From contig NZ_CP035934.2 in assembly GCF_003024525.3 (NCBI RefSeq), positions 124,001 through 188,000 of the forward strand: a DNA stretch of 64,000 nt, in the 5' to 3' direction. The notes under the pieces were generated by a model. That model was not told where the DNA came from. It was given only the letters and a program-made list of their open reading frames with translations, and searched no databases. Shown piece after piece: positions 10,675 through 48,946 of this stretch (position 1 is its first letter; each line of letters starts with the position of its first letter). The position numbers were made by a program, and so were the translations under genes. The stretch comes from Acinetobacter cumulans. Its GTDB lineage: Bacteria; Pseudomonadota; Gammaproteobacteria; Pseudomonadales; Moraxellaceae.

Positions 10675-11364
10675 ATGGAAAATAATCAGCTGTCTCATCC
10701 AGCCAAGGGCGTGGCATTAATCATTGGTGCAGGAGATGCGACTGGCGGTGAAATTGCCAAGCGTTTTGCCCGCGGTGGCTATATAGCCTGCATGACGCGA
10801 AGAAATGCAGATAAGCTCGTGCCTCTAATAGAAGAAATTGAACAGCAGGGGGGCACGGCATTTGGTTTTGCTTCTGATGCGCGTAAAGAAGAACAGGTCG
10901 TTGAGCTGATGGAGCGGATTGAGTCTGAAATAGGGCCGATCGAAGTGCTGGTATTTAATATTGGTGCCAATGTGCCTTGTAGTATTTTGGAAGAAACAGC
11001 ACGTAAATATTTTAAAATATGGGAAATGGCCTGCTTTGGCGCATTTTTGACTGGCCGTGAAGCGGCGAAACGCATGGTGACACGGGAGCGTGGCACGATT
11101 ATTTTTACTGGTGCAACGGCGGGTATACGTGGTGCAGCCGGCTTTGCGGCTTTTGCAGGTGCAAAACATGCGCTTCGTGCCTTGGCGCAAAGTATGGCGA
11201 GAGAACTTGGCCCCCGTAATATTCATGTGGCGCATGTGGTGGTCGATGGTGCGATTGATACTGACTTTATTAAAGATACCTTTCCTGAGATGTATATGAA
11301 AAAGGCGCAAGACGGTATTTTAAACTCTGCACATATTGCTGAAAATTATTGGCATCTTTCATAG
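10675..11364 (+). CDS. SDR-family oxidoreductase, shortened by an in-frame TAG
   Basis: This short-chain dehydrogenase/reductase-like protein has a Rossmann glycine motif GAGDATGGEIA (about residues 18-28) and the conserved VFNIGAN segment near residue 95. The position of the usual catalytic Tyr in YxxxK is Phe here (FAGAK, near residue 160), so a classical SDR mechanism is doubtful. The frame stops at TAG 11362, but reads on for 19 more codons to TAA at 11422-11424. In the second copy (33761-33975) the TAG codon is CAG (Gln) and the downstream 19 residues are the same. The native length is thus 249 residues, and this copy loses its last 20. A GAGGGG ribosome-binding site precedes ATG 10675. 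Possibly still folded; it may be a recent pseudogene. Confidence 0.85.
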   Translation: MENNQLSHPAKGVALIIGAGDATGGEIAKRFARGGYIACMTRRNADKLVPLIEEIEQQGGTAFGFASDARKEEQVVELMERIESEIGPIEVLVFNIGANVPCSILEETARKYFKIWEMACFGAFLTGREAAKRMVTRERGTIIFTGATAGIRGAAGFAAFAGAKHALRALAQSMARELGPRNIHVAHVVVDGAIDTDFIKDTFPEMYMKKAQDGILNSAHIAENYWHLS

Positions 11365-11473
11365 CAACCACGGGATGCATGGACACATGAATTAGACCTC
11401 AGACCCTGGATGGAGCGCTGGTAAGGATATAAAAAGAATTGAATGGACACATAAAATGACGAGGACTTTGAAA

Positions 11474-12058
11474 ATGAGCAAGATTGAATTTTATTTTGAT
11501 TTAGGTAGCCCATATAGCTTTTTGGGGTTTCACCGTATACAGCAGATTGCTGAGCAACATCAGGCAGAAATGATATGGAAACCGATGTTATTAGGAGGGG
11601 TCTTTAAAGCGACTGGGAATAACAGTCCAATGGCTGTGCCAGCCAAAGCACGCTATTCGATGATTGATTTACAGCGCTGGGCCAAGCTATGGCATATTCC
11701 TGTACAGATGAATCCTTATTTTCCAATTAATACCTTAATGCTAATGCGTTTGCTTACTGCTGTGCAGTTATATCAGCCAGCGCATTTTCAACGGGTTTTG
11801 ACTGCGCTATTTGATGCCATGTTTGCTCAGCCACGTAGTTTAAATGATGTGACAGAGCTGATGAATTTAGCGCAAGAATTAGGTTTTGAAGTCACTCAAG
11901 TACAGGCGTGGCTAGAAGATGAAAAGGTGAAATCTGAGCTGAAGGCGGTCACACAAGAAGCGATTGATCGTGGGGTGTTTGGTGCACCAACGTGGTTTGT
12001 AGCAGATGAAATGTATTGGGGGGTTGACCATCTGCATTTTGTGGAAGCTGCGCTATAG
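11474..12058 (+). CDS. DsbA-fold 2-hydroxychromene-2-carboxylate isomerase-like protein (copy 1)
   Basis: This is a thioredoxin-fold protein of the kappa-GST/HCCA-isomerase group, 194 residues. It begins with the signature FYFDLGSPYSFLG, where Ser replaces the redox Cys of true DsbA. It ends with GVFGAPTWFVADEMYWGVDHL, the family's cis-Pro and C-terminal motif. Such enzymes are glutathione-dependent isomerases in aromatic degradation, but the substrate here is unknown. I chose ATG 11474 because GAGG lies 9 bases upstream; an ATG at 11456 lacks a good site. It follows the SDR gene in the same direction and converges on aldehyde dehydrogenase. The protein is identical to that at 34025-34609. 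Confidence 0.88.
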   Translation: MSKIEFYFDLGSPYSFLGFHRIQQIAEQHQAEMIWKPMLLGGVFKATGNNSPMAVPAKARYSMIDLQRWAKLWHIPVQMNPYFPINTLMLMRLLTAVQLYQPAHFQRVLTALFDAMFAQPRSLNDVTELMNLAQELGFEVTQVQAWLEDEKVKSELKAVTQEAIDRGVFGAPTWFVADEMYWGVDHLHFVEAAL

Positions 12059-12089
12059 AGAATTGAATAGCTTCTAAACAGGTCAAATA

Positions 12090-12115
12090 AAAAAGCGAAC
12101 CGAAGTTCGCTTTTT
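12090..12115. terminator. bidirectional terminator between DsbA-like gene and aldehyde dehydrogenase (copy 1)
   Basis: Stem AAGCGAAC/GTTCGCTT with A and T runs sits between two convergent stops. The same hairpin recurs at 34641-34666. Confidence 0.9.
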
Positions 12116-12140
12116 AGGGTTTAACCATAGACTAACTCAA

Positions 12141-13652
12141 TTAGAAGAAGCCCATAGGTTTAGTAGAATAGCTCACCAACAGGTTTTTGGTTTGTTGGTA
12201 ATGGTCGAGCATCATTTTGTGGTTTTCACGGCCGATGCCTGATTTTTTGTAGCCACCGAAGGCCGCATGCGCAGGATAGATATGGTAGCAGTTGGTCCAT
12301 ACGCGACCGGCTTGAACCGCACGGCCTGCTCGGTATGAAGTATGTGCTGATCGTGACCATACGCCTGCGCCAAGGCCATAAATCGTGTCGTTGGCGATCT
12401 TGATGGCATCATCGAAATCTTTAAATGTGGTTACAGCAAGTACGGGCCCAAAAATTTCTTCTTGGAAAGTTTTCATGCTGTTGTTGCCTTTAAAGATGGT
12501 TGGTTCGATGTAGAAGCCTGTACCAACTTCTTGGCGTTCACCACCACCGGTCAGCACTTGCGCACCTTCTGCACGACCAGTTGCGATACAACCTAAGATT
12601 TTATCTTGTTGCTCTTGCGAAGCTTGAGCGCCAATCATGGTGTTAGTATCCAGTGGGTGGCCAGTCTTAATGCGCTTTACACGTTCAATGGCTTTTTCAA
12701 GGAATTTATCTGCAATGCTTTCATGGACTAAAGCACGTGAAGGACAGGTACAAATTTCACCTTGGTTGAGTGCAAACATGGCAAAGCCTTCCAGCGCTTT
12801 ATCCAAAAAGTCATCGTCTTGATCCATCACATCTTCAAAGAAAATGTTTGGTGATTTTCCACCAAGTTCCAGTGTTACAGGAATAATATTTTCAGTGGCA
12901 TACTGCATGATCATTTGGCCGACAGCCGTAGAACCCGTAAATGCAATTTTGGCAATACGTGGATTAGTTGCCAATGGACGGCCGACTTCTACGCCGTATC
13001 CGTTGACAATATTCAGTACGCCAGCAGGTAGGATGTCTTGGATTAATTCTGCCAAAACCAAAATGCTGGCTGGAGTTTGCTCAGCAGGTTTAAGCACAAT
13101 GCAGTTACCCGCAGCCAAGGCAGGTGCAAGTTTCCAAGCCGCCATTAAGATAGGGAAGTTCCAAGGAATAATTTGCCCCACAACACCCAAAGGTTCATGG
13201 AAATGGTAAGCAATGGTGTCACCATCAATTTCCGAAATACCGCCTTCTTGTGCGCGGATGCAGCTAGCAAAGTAGCGGAAATGGTCAATGGTGAGTGGAA
13301 TGTCTGCAGCCAGTGTTTCACGTACAGGTTTGCCGTTGTCCCATGTTTCTGCAACGGCCAATAATTCTAGATTTTCTTCTAAGCGATCTGCAATTTTCAG
13401 TAACAGATTAGAGCGAGTAGTCGGTGATGTATTGTTCCATTCGGCTTTGGCTGCGTGCGCAGCATCGAGCGCTAACTCAATATCTTCAGCCGATGAACGT
13501 GGAATTTTGGTAAATGCTTTGCCGTCAACTGGGGAGATGTTGTCAAAATATTCGCCTTTTACTGGTGCGACCCATTTGCCACCAATAAAGTTTTCATATT
13601 GTGATTTAAATTGAACTTTTGAGCCGTCTGTATTTGGATCTGCGTAACGCAT
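12141..13652 (-). CDS. NAD-dependent aldehyde dehydrogenase (copy 1)
   Basis: The enzyme oxidises aldehydes to acids. The 503-residue protein starts [20 protein letters not shown] and is of the ExaC/AcoD type used in ethanol and acetoin metabolism. Motifs are the NAD-binding FTGSTAVGQ, the general-base Glu in [11 protein letters not shown], the catalytic Cys in [11 protein letters not shown] near residue 300, and [11 protein letters not shown] use ATG 13652; the open frame runs 24 codons further without family resemblance. From about 12240 on, the coding sequence appears the same as the copy at 34692-36203, while flanking DNA differs. Unlike copy 2, no regulator gene is next to it. Confidence 0.95.
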
Positions 13653-13984
13653 ATTGACTGTTCCTTTGCTTATTATGGTGTTCTTCAACGTCATACAAAG
13701 CCTATGCTTTGTTCTCAGGTACAACTGCGCGTTTTTAGTCGCTCTTTGAATATAAGAGTGGATGGTGGTGCTTTGAATGGCAAATTACATCTTTTAGACA
13801 ATTTATTTAGGGTGTGGGTGCTTGGCTGTTAACTCAGTCACGATTTTGTTTTGTATGGGATATTTCGAAGCAATAAAGGAGATAAGGCACTCGCTTAGTT
13901 TAGTGTTGGACTAACATTTAGATGTGGCCTTAAAGATGTGTAGAAGGTGATCCCTTTAAGGCCTAGGCTGGTGAGATTGTAAAA
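13653..13984. other. gap between aldehyde dehydrogenase and hydrolase (copy 1)
   Basis: These 332 bases occupy the place where copy 2 carries a GAF-domain activator gene (36414-37601). I see no recognisable remnant of that gene. The aldehyde dehydrogenase promoter should lie here. Confidence 0.5.
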
Positions 13985-15049: not shown

Positions 15050-15081
15050 AAAAAAACCCTCATCAAAGATGAGGGTTTTTT
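15050..15081. terminator. terminator next to the left tRNA-Gly remnant
   Basis: A-run, stem AACCCTCATC/GATGAGGGTT and T-run. A related hairpin lies at the same distance from the complete tRNA-Gly at 48.74 kb, so it is probably the original tRNA terminator. Confidence 0.8.
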
Positions 15082-15132
15082 GAATTTGGAGCGGGAAAGG
15101 AGACTCGAACTCCCGACCCCAACCTTGGCAAG
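15077..15132. repeat. left attachment repeat: 3' part of tRNA-Gly (attL)
   Basis: These 56 bases are identical to 48741-48796. They cover five T residues, the flank GAATT and the 3' 46 bases of tRNA-Gly(GCC), ending inside the anticodon stem at CCAACCTTGGCAAG. The 5' part of the tRNA is missing; instead AGTCACCGAC follows, which resembles the sequence beside the middle core at 31661. This is the expected scar of an element integrated into a tRNA gene. Confidence 0.82.
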
Positions 15133-33760: not shown

Positions 33761-33975
33761 GCCCTCGTAATATTCATGTGGCGCATGTGGTGGTCGATGG
33801 TGCGATTGATACCGACTTTATTAAAGATACTTTTCCCGATTTGTACGCAAAAAAAGAGCAAGATGGCATTTTAAATCCAGTACATATTGCAGAGAATTAT
33901 TGGCATCTTTCGCAGCAACCACGAGATGCATGGACACATGAATTAGACCTCAGACCCTGGATGGAGCGCTGGTAA
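33761..33975 (+). pseudogene. SDR gene fragment, 3' end (copy 2)
   Basis: Only the last 71 codons remain, from PRNIHVAHVVVDGAIDTDF to the end MERW. They match the SDR at 11.2 kb at about four fifths of bases up to 33925 and almost fully after that. The 5' part was lost where the ISNCY remnant now ends. Unlike copy 1 it has CAG, not TAG, at the twentieth codon from the end. Confidence 0.85.
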
Positions 33976-34024
33976 GGATATAAAAAGAATTGAATGGACA
34001 CATAAAATGACGAGGACTTTGAAA

Positions 34025-34609
34025 ATGAGCAAGATTGAATTTTATTTTGATTTAGGTAGCCCATATAGCTTTTTGGGGTTTCACCGTATACAGCAGATTG
34101 CTGAGCAACATCAGGCAGAAATGATATGGAAACCGATGTTATTAGGAGGGGTCTTTAAAGCGACTGGGAATAACAGTCCAATGGCTGTGCCAGCCAAAGC
34201 ACGCTATTCGATGATTGATTTACAGCGCTGGGCCAAGCTATGGCATATTCCTGTACAGATGAATCCTTATTTTCCAATTAATACCTTAATGCTAATGCGT
34301 TTGCTTACTGCTGTGCAGTTATATCAGCCAGCGCATTTTCAACGGGTTTTGACTGCGCTATTTGATGCCATGTTTGCTCAGCCACGTAGTTTAAATGATG
34401 TGACAGAGCTGATGAATTTAGCGCAAGAATTAGGTTTTGAAGTCACTCAAGTACAGGCGTGGCTAGAAGATGAAAAGGTGAAATCTGAGCTGAAAGCGGT
34501 CACACAAGAAGCGATTGATCGTGGGGTATTTGGTGCACCAACGTGGTTTGTAGCAGATGAAATGTATTGGGGGGTTGATCATCTGCATTTTGTGGAAGCT
34601 GCGCTATAG
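34025..34609 (+). CDS. DsbA-fold 2-hydroxychromene-2-carboxylate isomerase-like protein (copy 2)
   Basis: The protein is identical to that at 11474-12058 (194 residues, FYFDLGSPYSFLG start and GAPTWFVADEMYWG end). Only a few silent base differences are seen, for example near 34495, 34528 and 34580. The start is again set by GAGG upstream. Its SDR partner gene is broken here. Confidence 0.88.
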   Translation: MSKIEFYFDLGSPYSFLGFHRIQQIAEQHQAEMIWKPMLLGGVFKATGNNSPMAVPAKARYSMIDLQRWAKLWHIPVQMNPYFPINTLMLMRLLTAVQLYQPAHFQRVLTALFDAMFAQPRSLNDVTELMNLAQELGFEVTQVQAWLEDEKVKSELKAVTQEAIDRGVFGAPTWFVADEMYWGVDHLHFVEAAL

Positions 34610-34640
34610 AGAATTGAACAGCTCATAATCAGGTCAAATA

Positions 34641-34666
34641 AAAAAGCGAACCGAAGTTCGCTTTTT
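34641..34666. terminator. bidirectional terminator (copy 2)
   Basis: Same AAGCGAAC/GTTCGCTT hairpin with A and T runs as at 12090, between convergent stops. Confidence 0.9.
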
Positions 34667-34691
34667 AGGGTTTAACTATAGACTAACTCAA

Positions 34692-36203
34692 TTAGAAGAA
34701 GCCCATAGGTTTAGTAGAATAGCTCACCAACAGGTTTTTGGTTTGTTGATAGTGATCGAGCATCATTTTGTGGTTTTCACGGCCGATGCCTGATTTCTTG
34801 TAGCCACCGAAGGCCGCATGCGCAGGATAGATATGGTAGCAGTTGGTCCATACGCGACCGGCTTGAACCGCACGGCCTGCTCGGTATGAAGTATGTGCTG
34901 ATCGTGACCATACGCCTGCGCCAAGGCCATAAATCGTGTCGTTGGCGATCTTGATGGCATCATCGAAATCTTTAAATGTGGTTACAGCAAGTACGGGCCC
35001 AAAAATTTCTTCTTGGAAAGTTTTCATGCTGTTGTTGCCTTTAAAGATGGTTGGTTCGATGTAGAAGCCTGTACCAACTTCTTGGCGTTCACCACCACCG
35101 GTCAGCACTTGCGCACCTTCTGCACGACCAGTTGCGATACAACCTAAGATTTTATCTTGTTGCTCTTGCGAAGCTTGAGCGCCAATCATGGTGTTAGTAT
35201 CCAGTGGGTGGCCAGTCTTAATGCGCTTTACACGTTCAATGGCTTTTTCAAGGAATTTATCTGCAATGCTTTCATGGACTAAAGCACGTGAAGGACAGGT
35301 ACAAATTTCACCTTGGTTGAGTGCAAACATGGCAAAGCCTTCCAGCGCTTTATCCAAAAAGTCATCGTCTTGATCCATCACATCTTCAAAGAAAATGTTT
35401 GGTGATTTTCCACCAAGTTCCAGTGTTACAGGAATAATATTTTCAGTGGCATACTGCATGATCATTTGGCCGACAGCCGTAGAACCCGTAAATGCAATTT
35501 TGGCAATACGTGGATTAGTTGCCAATGGACGGCCGACTTCTACGCCGTATCCGTTGACAATATTCAGTACGCCAGCAGGTAGGATGTCTTGGATTAATTC
35601 TGCCAAAACCAAAATGCTGGCTGGAGTTTGCTCAGCAGGTTTAAGCACAATGCAGTTACCCGCAGCCAAGGCAGGTGCAAGTTTCCAAGCCGCCATTAAG
35701 ATAGGGAAGTTCCAAGGAATAATTTGCCCCACAACACCCAAAGGTTCATGGAAATGGTAAGCAATGGTGTCACCATCAATTTCCGAAATACCGCCTTCTT
35801 GTGCGCGGATGCAGCTAGCAAAGTAGCGGAAATGGTCAATGGTGAGTGGAATGTCTGCAGCCAGTGTTTCACGTACAGGTTTGCCGTTGTCCCATGTTTC
35901 TGCAACGGCCAATAATTCTAGATTTTCTTCTAAGCGATCTGCAATTTTCAGTAACAGATTAGAGCGAGTAGTCGGTGATGTATTGTTCCATTCGGCTTTG
36001 GCTGCGTGCGCAGCATCGAGCGCTAACTCAATATCTTCAGCCGATGAACGTGGAATTTTGGTAAATGCTTTGCCGTCAACTGGGGAGATGTTGTCAAAAT
36101 ATTCGCCTTTTACTGGTGCGACCCATTTGCCACCAATAAAGTTTTCATATTGTGATTTAAATTGAACTTTTGAGCCGTCTGTATTTGGATCTGCGTAACG
36201 CAT
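34692..36203 (-). CDS. NAD-dependent aldehyde dehydrogenase (copy 2)
   Basis: The 503-residue protein is identical to the copy at 12141-13652, with the same catalytic Cys motif GEICTCPSR and Glu motif [12 protein letters not shown] 36203 is used; upstream bases diverge at once from copy 1. It is divergent from a GAF-domain activator and near an iron-containing alcohol dehydrogenase. This copy therefore sits in a more complete alcohol-to-aldehyde-to-acid locus and is likely controlled by that activator. Confidence 0.95.
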
Positions 36204-36413
36204 ACATATATTCCTTTGTTTATTATGATGTTTTCTGTCACCAAGCGTATACAGCTTTGGTATAAGGTACTTTTGCACATTATTTGATTAGCATACTTAC
36301 TATAAGGTTGGAAAAAGGTTGGTTGTTGGTCTGTTTACAAGTGGCTGACAAAAAACGTTACAAGGCAAAGAGGATGGCATAACAATAATCAACCCGAGTT
36401 GAGAAACTCTAGG

Positions 36414-41980: not shown

Positions 41981-43455
41981 TGTTAGAACCCATTTAAAGT
42001 GTCTATATTCTCACCAATAAAAATGTCCGCTTTTAGAATATGCACTTTTGCAATTTCCTTAGCGGACGGTTTGATATGTTGGTGTCTATGTCGGAGAAAG
42101 AACTTAAACGATTGTCGGTCTTGCAGGAAATCTGCGATCAACGCATAACTCAATCTCAGGCTGCTCAGCTACTTCATATTTCAGAACGTCAGATCAGACG
42201 CTTACTGCAGAAATACAAAGCCCAAGGTCCAGTTGCATTAGCCCATGCCGGTCGTGGCCAAATCAGCAATTCCAAACTTCCTGAAGAACTCAGACTCAAA
42301 TGCCTCAATATTGTTTCTGACCAACTCCATGGTTTCGGACCCACTTTAGCGCATGAAAAGCTCACCACCGTACATGGATTCGATCTTTCAGTAGAAACCC
42401 TGCGTTCCTGGATGATTGCAGCTGACTTATGGATTCCTCGATCCAAGCGCCTGTATCAGCCTCGTTACAACCGGGATTGCTTTGGTGAACTGATCCAAAT
42501 TGATGGCTCACACCATGACGGGTTTGAAGGACGCGCTACTAAATGCTGTCTACTGGTGTTCATTGATGATGCCACAGGCAAATTACAGCATTTACGCTTT
42601 TGTGAGTCAGAATCAACTTTTGACTATATGATTTCAACACGTTTATATATCGAACAGCATGGTAAGCCATTGGCATTTTACAGTGACAAACATTCAGTTT
42701 TTAGGGTGAATCAAAGTAGCAAGAAAGACACCAAGATTACCCAGTTCGGACGTGTTCTGAGCACTCTCAACATCGATATCATTTTCGCTAACTCCCCTCA
42801 AGCCAAAGGTCGTGTAGAACGAGCGAATAGAACACTTCAGGATCGTCTGATTAAGGAGATGCGTCTAGAAGGCATCAGTTCGATTGCAGAGGCCAATATA
42901 TGGTTACCCTGCTTTATTGAGCAGTTCAATCAGAAGTTCGCCAAATGTGCGCGAAACTCAAAGAACCTGCATCGGCCATTAAGCGAATCTGATCTTGAAC
43001 TGGATGATATTTTTACCTGGCAGGAACCGCGTAAGGTCACCAAGAATCTGACCCTGACCTATGACAAGTGTATTTATATGCTTGAACCGACAGAGCTGAA
43101 TCATAAGCTTGTTGGGCTATACATTTCATTTCTGGAGTACCCGGATGGTACTGTGGCAATCATGCATGAAGGACGGAAGATCAACTATAGCGTCTTCAAT
43201 AAACTGGCTGGACTGCAGCAAAATGCAGTGGTTGAGAATAAAAGATTAGGCTCGGTTCTGGCCCATATCCAGCAGCAACATGAGGAGTTGGAGAAACAGA
43301 ATAAACGTTCCCGTCTCAAGAAAAGTATGCCGAGTCGTAAAGCTCAGAAAGCTGTTATTGAACAAAGATATTTAAATCCTGTTCTTGACTCTTGCAGTTA
43401 AAAACAGGACATTTTAAATGGTTTATCGCATAGACATTTTAATTGGTGAATAGCA
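41981..43455 (+). mobile_element. ISNCY-type insertion sequence 1 (IS1202-like group)
   Basis: It is 1,475 bases from TGTTAGAACCC to GGTGAATAGCA. It is flanked on both sides by TCCAT (41976-41980 and 43456-43460), a 5-base target duplication. Both ends carry two copies of a CCAnTnAAAATGTC-like box, probably transposase-binding sites. Its outer left end matches the remnant at 33760, while its interior matches IS 2. Confidence 0.82.
42076..43401 (+). CDS. ISNCY-type transposase 1
   Basis: A DDE integrase of about 441 residues. It has an N-terminal helix-turn-helix (ITQSQAAQLLHISERQIRRLLQK), a second HTH-like region, and an rve catalytic core with LIQIDGSHHDGF, CLLVFIDDATGKLQ, FYSDKHSVF and NSPQAKGRVERANRTLQDRL, supplying the acidic triad. 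About the first 275 residues are identical to transposase 2; after EGISSIAEAN they differ markedly. The start may be 42076 or 42088. Confidence 0.9.
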   Translation: MLVSMSEKELKRLSVLQEICDQRITQSQAAQLLHISERQIRRLLQKYKAQGPVALAHAGRGQISNSKLPEELRLKCLNIVSDQLHGFGPTLAHEKLTTVHGFDLSVETLRSWMIAADLWIPRSKRLYQPRYNRDCFGELIQIDGSHHDGFEGRATKCCLLVFIDDATGKLQHLRFCESESTFDYMISTRLYIEQHGKPLAFYSDKHSVFRVNQSSKKDTKITQFGRVLSTLNIDIIFANSPQAKGRVERANRTLQDRLIKEMRLEGISSIAEANIWLPCFIEQFNQKFAKCARNSKNLHRPLSESDLELDDIFTWQEPRKVTKNLTLTYDKCIYMLEPTELNHKLVGLYISFLEYPDGTVAIMHEGRKINYSVFNKLAGLQQNAVVENKRLGSVLAHIQQQHEELEKQNKRSRLKKSMPSRKAQKAVIEQRYLNPVLDSCS

Positions 43456-43460
43456 TCCAT

Positions 43461-44933
43461 TGTAACTCCAAAATAGAAATGTCCGGTTTCTCCAAAGTAA
43501 AAATGTCCGCTTTTAGAATATGCACTTTTGCAATTTCCTTAGCGGACGGTTTGATATGTTGGTGTCTATGTCGGAGAAAGAACTTAAACGATTGTCGGTC
43601 TTGCAGGAAATCTGCGATCAACGCATAACTCAATCTCAGGCTGCTCAGCTACTTCATATTTCAGAACGTCAGATCAGACGCTTACTGCAGAAATACAAAG
43701 CCCAAGGTCCAGTTGCATTAGCCCATGCCGGTCGTGGCCAAATCAGCAATTCCAAACTTCCTGAAGAACTCAGACTCAAATGCCTCAATATTGTTTCTGA
43801 CCAACTCCATGGTTTCGGACCCACTTTAGCGCATGAAAAGCTCACCACCGTACATGGATTCGATCTTTCAGTAGAAACCCTGCGTTCCTGGATGATTGCA
43901 GCTGACTTATGGATTCCTCGATCCAAGCGCCTGTATCAGCCTCGTTACAACCGGGATTGCTTTGGTGAACTGATCCAAATTGATGGCTCACACCATGACG
44001 GGTTTGAAGGACGCGCTACTAAATGCTGTCTACTGGTGTTCATTGATGATGCCACAGGCAAATTACAGCATTTACGCTTTTGTGAGTCAGAATCAACTTT
44101 TGACTATATGATTTCAACACGTTTATATATCGAACAGCATGGTAAGCCATTGGCATTTTACAGTGACAAACATTCAGTTTTTAGGGTGAATCAAAGTAGC
44201 AAGAAAGACACCAAGATTACCCAGTTCGGACGTGTTCTGAGCACTCTCAACATCGATATCATTTTCGCTAACTCCCCTCAAGCCAAAGGTCGTGTAGAAC
44301 GAGCGAATAGAACACTTCAGGATCGTCTGATTAAGGAGATGCGTCTAGAAGGCATCAGTTCAATTGCAGATGCCAATAAGTGGCTGCCGTGCTTTATTGA
44401 GCAATTTAATCGTAAATTCGCCAAGATGGCTTTTAATCCCAAGGATCTACATCGACCTATCGCTGAAACAGCCGAAGAATTAGATGATGTTTTTACCTGG
44501 CGTGAACCCCGCAGAGTCACGAATAGCCTGACGATTACTTATGATAAATGCGTATATCTCTTGGAAAACACCGAAGAAAATCAGAGGTTGATCGGTAAGT
44601 ATCTTGAGTTCCTGGAATACCCGGATGGTACTGTAGCCATCATGCATAATAGCCGAAAGATCAATTACAGCCTCTTCGATAAATTAAGTCAGCTGAATCA
44701 GCGAGAGATTGTTGAGAATAAACGGTTGAGTGCTGTTCTGAATCATGTCCAACAACAGCATGAAGAACTGGAACAGCAAAACAAACGTAATCGTTCTCAA
44801 AAGATGCCAAGCAGACGTGCACAGAAAACAGCAATCAAAGAACGAAATCTAAATCCTGTGCTTGACTTGGAAATGTCCATATAGGACATTTCTATTTGGT
44901 TAGTAGGTAGGACATTTCTACTTGGGAATAACA
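43461..44933 (+). mobile_element. ISNCY-type insertion sequence 2
   Basis: It is 1,473 bases from TGTAACTCC to GGGAATAACA. Ends carry repeated CCAAATAGAAATGTCC-like boxes, two per end. It has no matching duplication (TCCAT left, TAAAA right). It stands directly after IS 1, separated only by the 5-base TCCAT. Confidence 0.8.
43556..44884 (+). CDS. ISNCY-type transposase 2
   Basis: A DDE transposase of about 442 residues with the same HTH and rve core as transposase 1 (LIQIDGSHHDGF, FYSDKHSVF, GRVERANRTLQD). Its C-terminal third (from EGISSIADANKW) is its own version, with the conserved EYPDGTVAIMHNSRKINYS. The stop lies within the IS end repeats. Confidence 0.9.
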   Translation: MLVSMSEKELKRLSVLQEICDQRITQSQAAQLLHISERQIRRLLQKYKAQGPVALAHAGRGQISNSKLPEELRLKCLNIVSDQLHGFGPTLAHEKLTTVHGFDLSVETLRSWMIAADLWIPRSKRLYQPRYNRDCFGELIQIDGSHHDGFEGRATKCCLLVFIDDATGKLQHLRFCESESTFDYMISTRLYIEQHGKPLAFYSDKHSVFRVNQSSKKDTKITQFGRVLSTLNIDIIFANSPQAKGRVERANRTLQDRLIKEMRLEGISSIADANKWLPCFIEQFNRKFAKMAFNPKDLHRPIAETAEELDDVFTWREPRRVTNSLTITYDKCVYLLENTEENQRLIGKYLEFLEYPDGTVAIMHNSRKINYSLFDKLSQLNQREIVENKRLSAVLNHVQQQHEELEQQNKRNRSQKMPSRRAQKTAIKERNLNPVLDLEMSI

Positions 44934-44935
44934 TA

Positions 44936-44967
44936 AAAAAATGGGAGCTATCAGCTCCCATTTTTTA
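44936..44967. terminator. terminator after IS 2
   Basis: A-run, stem ATGGGAGCT/AGCTCCCAT and T-run, between IS 2 and the convergent small gene at 44965. Confidence 0.88.
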
Positions 44968-45270
44968 TTTTTGCTCATGTTCTTTGTAGTACTGATGTGC
45001 TCTCTTAGAATTATGTTTCCAACTTTTAGCAACTTTATAAACGTAAGTCGGAAAATCATCCCAAACATGAGGTAAGCCTGTACCACGTGCTACACGAATT
45101 TTAAGCGAATAGCTTTTGTATTCAATACGATGTAAGAAATAAAAGCTACGTTCTTGCTGAGTACTGAATTTCTTAAATATAGAGCTTCTGACATTAGGGT
45201 AAATTTTCCAAAGATAATCATGTCGAGTACTTTGTATTGATTGCCTGTATTGATGTTTTAGTCTTTTCAT
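44965..45270 (-). CDS. small basic protein of unknown function
   Basis: I do not recognise this 101-residue protein. It is rich in Lys, Arg, His and Tyr (IEYKSYSLKIRVARGTG, YKVAKSWKHNSKRAHQYYKE), suggesting nucleic-acid binding. A good ribosome-binding site, AGGAGG, precedes ATG 45270 on the minus strand, and a terminator follows, so it is probably a real gene. The upstream TAGGTAACATTACCTA palindrome near 45279-45294 could be its operator. Confidence 0.6.
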   Translation of the reverse strand: MKRLKHQYRQSIQSTRHDYLWKIYPNVRSSIFKKFSTQQERSFYFLHRIEYKSYSLKIRVARGTGLPHVWDDFPTYVYKVAKSWKHNSKRAHQYYKEHEQK

Positions 45271-45361
45271 TGTTCCTCCTAGGTAACATTACCTAGAAGG
45301 GATCCTCTGCAAAATAGTACATCGTCTTTAATCCTATGAATTAAAAATTAGTATTTAAAAA

Positions 45362-45401
45362 TACCACAAAGTGGTATAAAATAAACTACTACAAGGTAGT
45401 A
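45362..45401. promoter_or_regulatory. twin palindromic operators before the toxin-antitoxin pair
   Basis: TACCACAAAGTGGTA (45362-45376) and TACTACAAGGTAGTA (45387-45401) are two 15-base palindromes with centres 25 bases apart, immediately before the toxin start. This is the expected layout for autoregulation by the HTH antitoxin. Confidence 0.7.
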
Positions 45402-45404
45402 TGA

Positions 45405-45737
45405 ATGCAAGAAATGTATACAATATGTGAGACCCCATTATTTACTAAATACTGTCTTGTTTATTGGACTCAGGAAGAATATGAGGAATTCAAAACATTT
45501 TTAGCATTAAACCCTGAAGCAGGAGATGTTGAGCCTAATGCAGGCGGTATTCGTAAGATTAGATGGACTAGCGGTAGTAGAGGTAAAAGTGGTGGTGTCA
45601 GAGTCATCTACTTTAATCGTTTAGCAAATGGAGAGATTTGGTTATTAACCTTGTACAGTAAAAAGCAAACTGTACAGCTTAGTAAGAAGACTCTTCAAAC
45701 ATTGGTGGAGAAACTAAATGACTCGTTTAATGACTGA
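45405..45737 (+). CDS. RelE/HigB-type toxin
   Basis: A 110-residue toxin of the RelE/ParE superfamily, HigB2-like. Members cut mRNA on the ribosome. It shows TKYCLVYWTQEEYEEFKTFLAL, IRKIRWTSGSRGKSGGVRVIYF and EIWLLTLYSKKQTVQLSKK, the typical C-terminal strand pattern. The start at 45405 has AAGG eight bases upstream, within the second operator. The antitoxin gene overlaps its end by 20 bases. The toxin-first order is typical of HigBA. Confidence 0.85.
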   Translation: MQEMYTICETPLFTKYCLVYWTQEEYEEFKTFLALNPEAGDVEPNAGGIRKIRWTSGSRGKSGGVRVIYFNRLANGEIWLLTLYSKKQTVQLSKKTLQTLVEKLNDSFND

Positions 45738-46032
45738 AAAAGAACTGCAATCTTTTGAAGAAACTAGGGATATTGAAGCTGAAATATTACAAGGCATCGA
45801 CGATATGCTTGCTAATAATGCAGCGAAAAGAACAGTAATCACTGAGACAGATGTTGCGTTAGCTCGTAGAAAGGCTCAACTAACACAAGATCAGTTTGCT
45901 AAGATTCTTGGCGTATCAAGACGTACCCTTGAATCCTGGGAACAAGGTGCGAGAAGACCATCAGGAGCAGCAACATCGCTTATTCGATTATTTATTGTTG
46001 ATCCAAAATTTGTAAAAGAGAGTCTGGCTTAA
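45718..46032 (+). CDS. HigA-type HTH antitoxin
   Basis: A 104-residue antitoxin with an acidic helical N-terminus (MTEKELQSFEETRDIEAEIL), likely to wrap the toxin. A C-terminal Cro/C1-type HTH follows: ARRKAQLTQDQFAKILGV, then SRRTLESWEQGARRPSGA. GGAG is placed 8 bases before ATG 45718. It should repress the operon via the twin palindromes. Confidence 0.87.
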   Translation: MTRLMTEKELQSFEETRDIEAEILQGIDDMLANNAAKRTVITETDVALARRKAQLTQDQFAKILGVSRRTLESWEQGARRPSGAATSLIRLFIVDPKFVKESLA

Positions 46033-46084
46033 TTTAAATGGCTCTCCTTTGAGAGCTATTTACTATATTCATTTAAGGTTTTTT

Positions 46085-46399
46085 ATGAAGCACTTAGGAT
46101 TTGTTGGAAAAAGTACTGAATATTTAGGGTATACCCATGTTGAAATTATCAATAGCTCATTACGCTTATCTTTCAATATTCCATCGAAAAATGATCTAAA
46201 AGAAACCTTTAAAAAGATGGTCGAAAATAACTATGATTTACTTATGGAAACATCAGCTGAAATAGAGTTCGATTTAGAAAGCGAAACTATAGCAAAGATA
46301 GAAACCATCATAAAAGAAAAAGAGATTGAACTTGATGAGTTTGTCCAAAATGCGCTGATTAAATTTATCAACCAAAATGAATCGACTAAGATTGATTAA
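46085..46399 (+). CDS. hypothetical protein following the toxin-antitoxin pair
   Basis: I do not recognise this 104-residue protein. The C-terminal third (ESETIAKIETIIKEKEIEL, then DEFVQNALIKFI) looks like a ribbon-helix-helix arrangement of strand and two helices, so DNA binding is possible. ATG 46085 with AAGG upstream is preferred over an upstream start. A strong terminator follows. It could be a third member of the toxin-antitoxin operon or independent. Confidence 0.6.
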   Translation: MKHLGFVGKSTEYLGYTHVEIINSSLRLSFNIPSKNDLKETFKKMVENNYDLLMETSAEIEFDLESETIAKIETIIKEKEIELDEFVQNALIKFINQNESTKID

Positions 46400-46417
46400 C
46401 CCTTAAATGTAGATAAT

Positions 46418-46446
46418 AAAAAGCCCAACATCCTGTTGGGCTTTTT
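46418..46446. terminator. terminator before the CRISPR fragment
   Basis: A-run, stem AGCCCAACA/TGTTGGGCT, T-run, after the gene at 46085. Confidence 0.9.
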
Positions 46447-46561
46447 CGTATGGGTTCGCTCGGTATAACTCCTGTCGTACCTTACAGTCCTTGTGCGTAT
46501 CTATGTTCTTATTATTGTGTGGAACTTCCTGTTCCTGATGAATCCATCATAGGAAATTGCA

Positions 46562-46814
46562 GCTAGATCGTATATAGGCAGCTTAGAAAAGCGGAATGCG
46601 ATGACGGTGTGAGATCTCAATATTCACTGCCATATAGGCAGCTTAGAAAATAAAAAGCGTCAGACTAAAAACAGCACGGCGGTTCACTGCCATATAGGCA
46701 GCTTAGAAAAATATCGCTATTGTCGGTGGTGTGGCCTTGCTGTTCACTGCCATATAGGCAGCTTAGAAATTTAAGCTTATCAACCTTGATTTGCTGTCCA
46801 GGTTCACTGCCATA
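46562..46814 (+). CRISPR. type I-F-like CRISPR fragment: five repeat units, four spacers, no cas genes
   Basis: A 28-base repeat beginning GTTCACTGCC, then ATATAGGCA, ending GCTTAGAAA, recurs with an exact 60-base period at 46562, 46622, 46682, 46742 and 46802. The four spacers are all 32 bases (46590-46621, 46650-46681, 46710-46741, 46770-46801). The 28/32 geometry and the TAGAAA end are the I-F pattern. Repeats 3 and 4 are identical. Repeat 2 has one change at its first base. Repeat 1 keeps only its last 19 bases. Repeat 5 stops after 13 bases, where the integrase gene begins. No cas gene is in the window and no leader is recognised. Confidence 0.9.
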
Positions 46815-47698
46815 CAGAAGACAAAACTGGATTTACCATTATTTAAGCTTTTCTGTTGCAGAAAGGCTTGGTACGCCCGGTCATTCATCTGGATCGTGCG
46901 GTCAGAACCATAAGTTTTGGTTCCACCAAGCACACCATTCACTAACGCTTCACGAATGTGGATTTCCCGACGTTGTAAGTCCACATTTTTCCATTGCAGA
47001 CCATCGATTTCACTGGTACGCATACCCGTAAAAAAGCGAATGGTGTAATAGGGGCGGAAGTCTTCACGCACTGTGGTAAGAATTTTATGCACCTCTTCCA
47101 GAGAAAAAGGTGTGACTTCAATCTTGCTTTCCTTCAGATTGTTAATATTTTTATAAGGCGACTCAAACTCGTATCGTTCAGCCGCATCATTGAGTATCAT
47201 ACGTAAAGGCGTCATGATTTGATTGATCCTCGATGCTTTTAGACTTGTCTGATCTTTTCCGTGAGTCACTTTGGCGAGGGAAGCACGGAAGTTCAGCAAG
47301 TCTGACTTCTTGATTTTCGAGAGAACCTGATTACCAAAAGCAGGAATCAAATAATTTTTAATAATGATTGAAATCTTATGTTGATAAGATGTTCTCCACT
47401 CAATCTGTTTTTGTTTAAACCATAATTCAGTAAACTCTTTAAAAAGAGGAACTTTAGTTTGTACAGCGATTTGCTGACTTCTTTTTTCCTTAAACTGCTC
47501 GACACGTTTACTTTTGGGGAAGTACTTTTCATATTCGAAAGTTCCCAAAGTAATTTCAGCTTCAAGCTGCTCGAGACGTTTTTTCAAAATGCGACGATTA
47601 TAGGCGTTGTCTTCAAGATTGGGTGTTTCTCTGCAACGAATGCCCATGTAGCGGAAATCGGCAATCAGTTTGCCGCTTCGTTCTCGGATGGTAGCCAT
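46815..47698 (-). pseudogene. tyrosine-recombinase integrase, 3' end lost at the CRISPR junction
   Basis: The protein opens with ATIRERSGKLIADFRYMGIRC, an N-terminal DUF3596-like region, followed by a core-binding domain (KSDLLNFRASLAKVTHGKDQ) and the start of the catalytic domain. The latter has the first Arg in FFTGMRTSEIDGLQW and then GGTKTYGSDRTIQM. The His-x-x-Arg box and the nucleophile Tyr are absent: after SSFVFC the frame runs into CRISPR repeat 5 and spacer 4 and stops at 46763. About a quarter of the expected length is lost. It is probably inactive, and it lies beside an excisionase-like gene and the tRNA site. Confidence 0.85.
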
Positions 47699-47717: not shown

Positions 47718-47927
47718 TTATTGCAAAGCATCCATGCTTAAACCAGTAAATTTAAGCATTTCAGTTTCAATGCGTTCCCAAACAAAAAGAATTTTACGAC
47801 CACCGAAAGGACGGATGTAGTGCACACCTTCAATAAAGACACTATCCTTCAGTTGGTTGCGAATAGTAAAAGCGTCGTACTGAATTTTTTCAGCCAGTTG
47901 TTGGGCTGTAAGATAGGTATATGACAT
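47718..47927 (-). CDS. small HTH protein, excisionase-like
   Basis: This 69-residue protein with YLTAQQLAEKIQYDAFTIR, then RPFGGRKILFVWERIE resembles AlpA/Xis-like winged-helix proteins that pair with integrases. It lies 19 bases upstream of the integrase in the same direction and probably directs excision or regulates the integrase. GTAACTAGG-type DNA upstream may be its control region. Confidence 0.72.
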   Translation of the reverse strand: MSYTYLTAQQLAEKIQYDAFTIRNQLKDSVFIEGVHYIRPFGGRKILFVWERIETEMLKFTGLSMDALQ

Positions 47928-48038: not shown

Positions 48039-48254
48039 ATGATTATTTCAAACTTGGCAGTTTTACTAGCTGAGCGAAAGTTAAAAGTAGCTGATTTAGT
48101 TAGAAGTACAGGAATAAATAAATCTACATTGCATAAGCTCTATAACGATGAATCAGTCAGAATTGATTTTGAGACAATTGATAAGATTTGTGTGGCTTTA
48201 AATGTAGAAGTTGGTGATTTATTAATTTTTAAACAAAATGAAAATAATCAATAA
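48039..48254 (+). CDS. Cro/C1-type HTH regulator
   Basis: A 71-residue protein that is nearly all helix-turn-helix: LAERKLKVADLVRSTGIN, then KSTLHKLYNDESVRIDFETIDKICVALNVEVGDLL. It resembles YozG-type phage or plasmid repressors. AGGAG stands before ATG 48039. It is divergent from the excisionase-integrase genes and is likely their repressor. Confidence 0.85.
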   Translation: MIISNLAVLLAERKLKVADLVRSTGINKSTLHKLYNDESVRIDFETIDKICVALNVEVGDLLIFKQNENNQ

Positions 48255-48740: not shown

Positions 48741-48796
48741 TTTTTGAATTTGGAGCGGGAAAGGAGACTCGAACTCCCGACCCCAACCTTGGCAAG
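48741..48796. repeat. right attachment repeat (attR) inside tRNA-Gly
   Basis: 56 bases identical to 15077-15132, here part of the complete tRNA-Gly gene and its downstream flank. A hairpin related to the one at 15.06 kb lies just left of it. Confidence 0.82.
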
Positions 48797-48826
48797 GTTA
48801 TGCTCTACCAACTGAGCTATTCCCGC
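48751..48826 (-). tRNA. tRNA-Gly(GCC), with encoded CCA
   Basis: A full 76-base cloverleaf: acceptor GCGGGAA pairing with TTCCCGC, D-arm AGCTCAGTTGGTAGAGC, anticodon loop CTTGCCAA (GCC), T-loop GTTCGAGTC, discriminator T and encoded CCA. Its 3' 46 bases are repeated at 15087-15132. Confidence 0.97.
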
Positions 48827-48873
48827 GGAGTCTATCCAATTTTTTAAATAAAAAACCGAATGAAAAAATTTTG

Positions 48874-48946
48874 AGCGGGAAAGGAGACTCGAACTCCCGA
48901 CCCCAACCTTGGCAAGGTTATGCTCTACCAACTGAGCTATTCCCGC
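48874..48946 (-). tRNA. tRNA-Gly(GCC), second copy, CAA instead of CCA
   Basis: The body is identical to the tRNA at 48751, but the three bases after the discriminator are CAA, so CCA must be added or repaired by the CCA-adding enzyme. The two genes are 47 bases apart and co-directional; this one is transcribed first. Confidence 0.96.

Follow-up and report, generated by a model that had tools for sequence, protein, structure and literature searches.

A four-unit type I-F CRISPR array segment beside a truncated island integrase in Acinetobacter cumulans, probably the relic of an island-borne CRISPR-Cas system

How does a short piece of CRISPR array come to lie between plasmid-type DNA and the broken end of an integrase gene, and could it still serve any purpose there? 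The question is raised by a stretch of 64,000 nucleotides from the genome of Acinetobacter cumulans (contig NZ_CP035934.2, positions 124,001 to 188,000 of the forward strand; hereafter the window). On its plus strand, the 240 bases from 46575 to 46814 are exactly four 60-base units of a type I-F CRISPR array, opened in the repeat loop at both ends, as judged from repeat spacing, Rfam and BLAST. The repeats follow each other in 60-base steps, and the spacers of 32 bases are unique. The sequence GTTCACTGCCATATAGGCAGCTTAGAAA occurs in three copies in the window with 0–1 mismatches (0.00 expected from 100 shuffles), and all three, repeats 2–4, exceed the cut-off of 35 bits of the Rfam model CRISPR-DR4 (two at 44.8 bits, one at 41.7). 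Read along the plus strand, a hybrid repeat 1 (46562–46589) and spacer 1 (46590–46621) are followed by repeat 2 (46622–46649), which has an intact hairpin and A instead of G as its first base, spacer 2 (46650–46681), repeat 3 (46682–46709), spacer 3 (46710–46741), repeat 4 (46742–46769), spacer 4 (46770–46801), and the first 13 bases of repeat 5 (46802–46814); repeats 3 and 4 have the consensus sequence. A first-pass annotation, made from the letters alone, had described an orphan I-F-like fragment with both ends within repeats, with which the Rfam scores and the break points agree, and its five repeat starts at 60-base steps with 32-base spacers were borne out in spacing and spacer coordinates.

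The limits of the segment follow from BLAST comparisons with relatives of its two flanks. Homology to an A. johnsonii plasmid runs to 46574, and integrase homology starts at 46815 in L002, L037, L038, and L040, four of the seven loci compared at this end (for L052 and L064, the matches listed do not extend to this place). The array segment is therefore 46575–46814. Repeat 1 agrees with the consensus from its position 11 (46572) onward and differs at position 10; its positions 1–10 are plasmid-type sequence, and the bases ATA (46572–46574) are common to the array repeat and the plasmid-type flank. Since ATA can also be counted as plasmid-type, the loss from repeat 1 amounts to 10 to 13 bases; the truncation had been recognized earlier, but the figure of nine bases given for it was too low. 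Repeat 5 ends after base 13 at the integrase gene, just as previously noted. Here the array shares the bases TA with 10 of 25 integrase relatives and not with the other 15. Both breaks fall within the five-base hairpin loop, where each separates A13 from T14 of the repeat. By simple post hoc arithmetic, breaks in the same phase are expected by chance in about 1 of 10 cases, shared bases allowed for, and breaks that both fall in the loop (one base either side) in about 1 of 70.

To the left, positions 44880–46574 (plus strand) are a plasmid-type block that consists of a toxin-antitoxin-like pair, a small gene, and a conserved non-coding element. It is 99% identical to the A. johnsonii plasmid p_ajICE_NC (CP090417.1; 99.0% over 44880–46287 and 99.3% over 46279–46574). 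The non-coding element, which comes after a hairpin with a T run, makes up the last ~155 bases of the block (46420–46574) and is strongly conserved among Acinetobacter plasmids, where its neighbours are unrelated cargo genes. It was matched by 24 of the best 40 of 348 records, and 11 of these 24 matches reach query base 173–175, where the array starts. In all eight aligned plasmids the element continues beyond the array join, in seven of them as GGCGCAAAG; thus, the array cuts into a conserved plasmid element midway. Among the matches listed for the 148 other genomes of the genus, none contains this left junction. The element is a candidate transfer origin, and one report mentions an R388-like oriT on Acinetobacter plasmids (PMC7315799). 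The border of a pdif/XerCD module was also considered and rejected, as only the CGTATA part of the flank resembled, by eye, the pdif sites given in that report.

To the right, the array adjoins a tyrosine integrase gene on the minus strand (46815–47698) that is cut in codon 295. Its open frame (46763–47698) takes its last residues from the array, and the Pfam match ends at position 100 of the 172 positions of the catalytic domain. All 25 related loci match residues 1–295 only, although their own integrases are 387–394 aa long; the ~100 further residues of their frames, missing in the window, include the motifs RHT, LGH, and YSRY, which we take to hold the catalytic residues. Judged from its sequence, the window integrase is unlikely to work as a recombinase. 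Toward higher coordinates come, next to the integrase, a small protein without a Pfam match (47718–47927, minus strand), which has a counterpart in L052 and L040 and is, from its position, possibly an excisionase, then a Cro/C1-type HTH regulator (48039–48254, plus strand), and two tRNA-Gly(gcc) genes on the minus strand (48751–48826 and 48873–48946), the first of which is the presumed island insertion site. A 56-base sequence at the 3′ end of this tRNA gene (48741–48796, plus strand) is exactly repeated in direct orientation at 15077–15132; the two copies are candidate att sites, and the latter may mark the far end of the island. A tRNA-Gly(gcc) gene lies ~0.9–1.2 kb before the integrase in 17 of 17 loci scanned (of the 25), as it does in the window, and such a gene also precedes the integrases of the genomes G003, G142, and G075. 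The sequence context thus assigns the integrase fragment to Acinetobacter islands inserted at tRNA-Gly genes.

Two further duplications were observed elsewhere in the window. A direct duplication of 2.5 kb (11210–13686 and 33761–36235), 98.3% identical and ~22.5 kb apart, contains what look like aldehyde dehydrogenase and DsbA-like genes. Neighbouring transposase copies, ISNCY-like by look, lie at 42008–43203 and 43488–44683; they are 92% identical over 1.2 kb and diverge at their 3′ ends.

What such islands may carry is seen in related genomes. The integrase is present in 36 other genomes (149 searched, host included), and 19 of these 36 also contain Cas6f. In three of the 19 (G003, G013, and G142) the two genes share a contig, lie within 20 kb of each other, and enclose an array; G075 has the same order, split by a contig end inside the array, and in the remaining 15 the genes are unlinked or cannot be judged owing to contig breaks. 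By our own arithmetic, chance would produce ~0.2 linked integrase–Cas6f pairs among 19 genomes. The order in the four related genomes is integrase, DUF1376 gene, DnaC-like gene, I-F array, cas6f, and further cas genes; array and integrase run in opposite directions, as they do in the window. The array starts 1.7–1.8 kb behind the integrase wherever this was measured (L064, L052, L040, and L065); the window retains this order and orientation, minus the 1.7–1.8 kb stretch and the integrase tail.

The island systems are of type I-F1 in three genomes and I-F2 in the fourth. In A. kyonggiensis (L052, from G013), the integrase is followed by the DUF1376 gene, an IstB/DnaC-like ATPase gene, an array of 28 repeats, two of them variant, and cas6f, csy3, csy2, and csy1 (Csy1 scores 154.2 bits, below the curated cut-off of 169.4). 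The locus of A. schindleri (L040, from G075) has the same start and reaches the contig end with the exact repeat of the window; a second contig opens with two more such repeats and continues with cas6f, csy3, csy2, csy1, and cas3. In G003 (L064:3933-19001), 252 repeats are located between integrase and cas6f inside the tRNA-Gly island, and csy3, csy2, csy1, cas3, and cas1 come after cas6f. The island end is present twice in G142, each time with 95 repeats, and in the copy examined the array is followed by cas6f, Cas5fv, Cas7fv, Cas3fv, and cas1, the gene set of subtype I-F2. The two copies (L065 and L066; G142:C1:78500-90500 and 2562000-2574000) are 99.8% identical, one of them with a split cas6f, and reflect either a real duplication or an assembly error. 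Since the same integrase and tRNA-Gly setting is combined with I-F2 in G142 (L074) and with I-F1 in G003 (L073), the CRISPR cargo of these islands seems to have been exchanged.

Because the relatives carry an I-F array and cas genes beside the same integrase and in the same orientation, the piece in the window was most likely left after deletions. We therefore regard it, with a probability of roughly three in four, as what remains, now inert, of an I-F CRISPR-Cas system once carried by the island. One deletion would have joined integrase codon 295 to the interior of the array, with loss of the last quarter of the integrase, the DUF1376 gene, the DnaC-like gene, and the trailer. A second rearrangement, with the three shared bases ATA, would have fused the array's opposite side with the plasmid-type block and removed the leader and the cas genes. 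That the A. schindleri island carries the window's exact repeat supports this origin. In the window the integrase is incomplete, and by eye no DUF1376 gene, DnaC-like gene, or cas operon is present among its listed open frames. At best, the window island would thus be a decayed copy of a tRNA-Gly island with an I-F locus. The parts, the break points, the gene order in relatives, and the loss of the I-F1 effector genes from this genome are direct observations; we infer that this very island once carried the whole locus, how many deletions there were and in which order, and that the remaining scrap has no function. No spacer is common to the window and the related islands or the 174 other genomes of the genus searched, so that the spacers lend no support to descent from the same array, and, as the islands differ in their systems, what the window island carried is uncertain; the comparison comprised one genome per species and contained no intermediate strain. 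Simple decay, moreover, does not predict exactly four units, and the whole-unit length and the loop position of both breaks remain odd. Palindromic, hairpin-extruding CRISPR repeats might be preferred break points in array decay and shed whole-unit pieces into adjoining mobile DNA, an idea that we consider quite improbable.

Alternatively, the fragment could stem from another array, on a plasmid, a prophage, or the chromosome, and illegitimate recombination could have trapped it between its present neighbours, the plasmid-type block and the integrase; its place beside the latter would then be due to chance. We judge this unlikely, albeit the strongest of the alternatives. The left flank is plasmid-type, and plasmids do carry I-F-like arrays: the array part was matched by 15 of the best 40 of 348 records, and one plasmid (L004) has the same repeat. 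A source on viral DNA is conceivable too, given a viral contig with a leader-like stretch and 16 copies of this repeat. However, the orientation and neighbourhood of the fragment fit the island-borne loci, and no credible spacer match was obtained in the plasmids or viral contigs searched. Comparison of the spacers with phage, plasmid, and island sequences, proposed in the first-pass annotation, yielded no credible match for any of the four among 50,697 phage records and 72,556 plasmid records, where the best candidates, in Streptomyces phages (20 bases, E = 0.08) and a Sinorhizobium plasmid (26 bases, E = 0.06), were dismissed as targets. Equally, none was found in IMG/VR at 24 specified bases, in the 174 other genomes of the genus at up to three mismatches besides five free positions, in 64 related loci at up to six mismatches, or elsewhere in the host genome within the mismatches allowed. 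Of the notion of an array piece captured by recombination, the array piece held, whereas the capture probably reverses what happened.

The viral contig (IMGVR_UViG_2791355504_000004, 65.5 kb) deserves a description of its own. At L072:5150-6500 it contains a leader-like stretch, resembling that of the second I-F locus of our host, and 16 repeats identical to those of the window. This array is located directly behind a long, phage-like-looking frame, and the 6.7 kb examined contain no cas gene; as judged from these features, it would be an orphan array, still accompanied by its leader, within viral DNA.

The host's own second I-F locus (~C1:2249346-2256968) is an unlikely source. All 16 of its repeats differ from the window repeat at one base and it shares no spacer with the window, and an origin from this array was rejected on these grounds. 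The operon of this locus (C1:2250410-2256003) is itself degraded. Its cas6f is intact (C1:2250410-2251009, an open frame of 206 aa) and cas1 is whole. With a closer query, the first 79 aa of csy1 were recovered, which have no Pfam match, only the last 20–22 codons of csy3 remain, and an IS3-family transposase, in two frames, separates the two remnants. cas3 has an in-frame stop that leaves open frames of 503 and 587 aa. Neither csy1, csy2, nor a complete csy3 was found in the host genome. A search for I-F cas genes elsewhere in the genome, as suggested in the first-pass annotation, was therefore answered in part, with cas6f and cas1 preserved, csy1–csy3 mostly lost, and cas3 interrupted. With these losses, the findings from this assembly allow no complete I-F1 interference complex. 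A search of the window and of 29 kb surrounding this locus gave no match for the I-F2 effectors Cas5fv and Cas7fv.

These losses bear on the proposal that the fragment is a working mini-array or an RNA anti-CRISPR, transcribed from outside and cut by the host Cas6f, and directed against competing elements or serving as a decoy for Cas6f/Cas7f. Repeats 2–4 form the Cas6f hairpin (3 of 5 repeats; 5-bp stem, −7.8 kcal/mol), and the intact host cas6f would leave processing of any transcript conceivable. Viral mini-arrays and solitary I-F repeats acting as Racrs are known (PMC11656645; PMC10651486), and the search for I-F2 effectors covered the window and the 29 kb mentioned above. Nevertheless, repeats 1 and 5 gave no hairpin on folding, so that at best spacers 2 and 3 could yield standard crRNAs, and for no spacer was a target found. 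A leader is absent beside the first repeat, as plasmid-type sequence runs on into repeat 1; the arrays of L052 and of the host's second I-F locus have a leader-like stretch, behind cas6f, ahead of their first repeat. No sigma-70-like promoter was found in 46380–46860 (mean of 1.3 in shuffles), no cas genes adjoin the array, the single Cas6f gene found in the genome is ~2.08 Mb away, and the adjoining integrase is broken. The earlier observation that cas genes and a visible leader are missing is confirmed by these results, while the suggestion made along with it, a mini-array served by the I-F Cas proteins of a host, finds neither the I-F1 effector genes nor the leader, the two outer hairpins, or the spacer matches that would speak for it, and we regard function of this kind as very improbable. 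Least credible is the insertion of a 240-base circle of four units, excised by recombination between repeats, in one piece where plasmid-type block and integrase met: it would account for the exact 240 bases and for both breaks between A13 and T14, but the left join is ambiguous by three bases, TA is shared in 10 of 25 relatives at the right, the equal phase is a coincidence of about 1 in 10, and insertion into a pre-existing joined site was rejected, as no phage or plasmid record has both flanks joined without the array (such a record, with a query coverage of ~60%, would rank first, and the best one covers 41%).

We thus return to the relic of an island-borne system. The fragment gives a glimpse of the way in which mobile islands may lose a CRISPR-Cas system, and it cautions that cas-less arrays on mobile DNA need not all be weapons. 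Of more use is perhaps a side result, the Acinetobacter tRNA-Gly island family in which integrase, DUF1376, and DnaC-like genes stand beside a whole I-F system, I-F1 in some members and I-F2 in another, with arrays of up to 252 repeats. The window fragment itself is most likely a degraded example of something already familiar.

Among the systems with which it can be compared, the anti-cas orphan I-F arrays (CRISPR4) that Almendros reportedly described from E. coli in 2016 likewise lack cas genes. In contrast to them, the window spacers match neither the 64 loci nor any of the 174 other genomes of the genus, with Cas6f present in at least 60 of these (60 of the 148 searched for it), and anti-cas spacers were rejected accordingly. 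Subtype I-Fb loci are reported on genomic islands of A. baumannii (PMC4338279). The repeat class and the carriage on an island are alike, and the tRNA-Gly relatives of the window likewise keep array and cas genes together, whereas the window has lost leader, trailer, and cas genes and retains three whole repeats. Among the matches listed in the open literature, no title or abstract opening describes an I-F system located where this integrase inserts at tRNA-Gly. The island GI1 of A. baumannii NCIMB8209, likened here by its description in Table 2 of the report (PMC7392541), has an integrase near tRNA-Gly-GCC, toxin-antitoxin genes, and insertion sequences, but the NCIMB8209 genome is said in that report to lack CRISPR-cas. 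Finally, orphan CRISPR arrays have been discussed as remnants of decaying systems (PMC9071438). The window fragment resembles these as a short, cas-less array by mobile DNA, and differs from them in that the way genes are ordered in its relatives reveals a probable parent locus.
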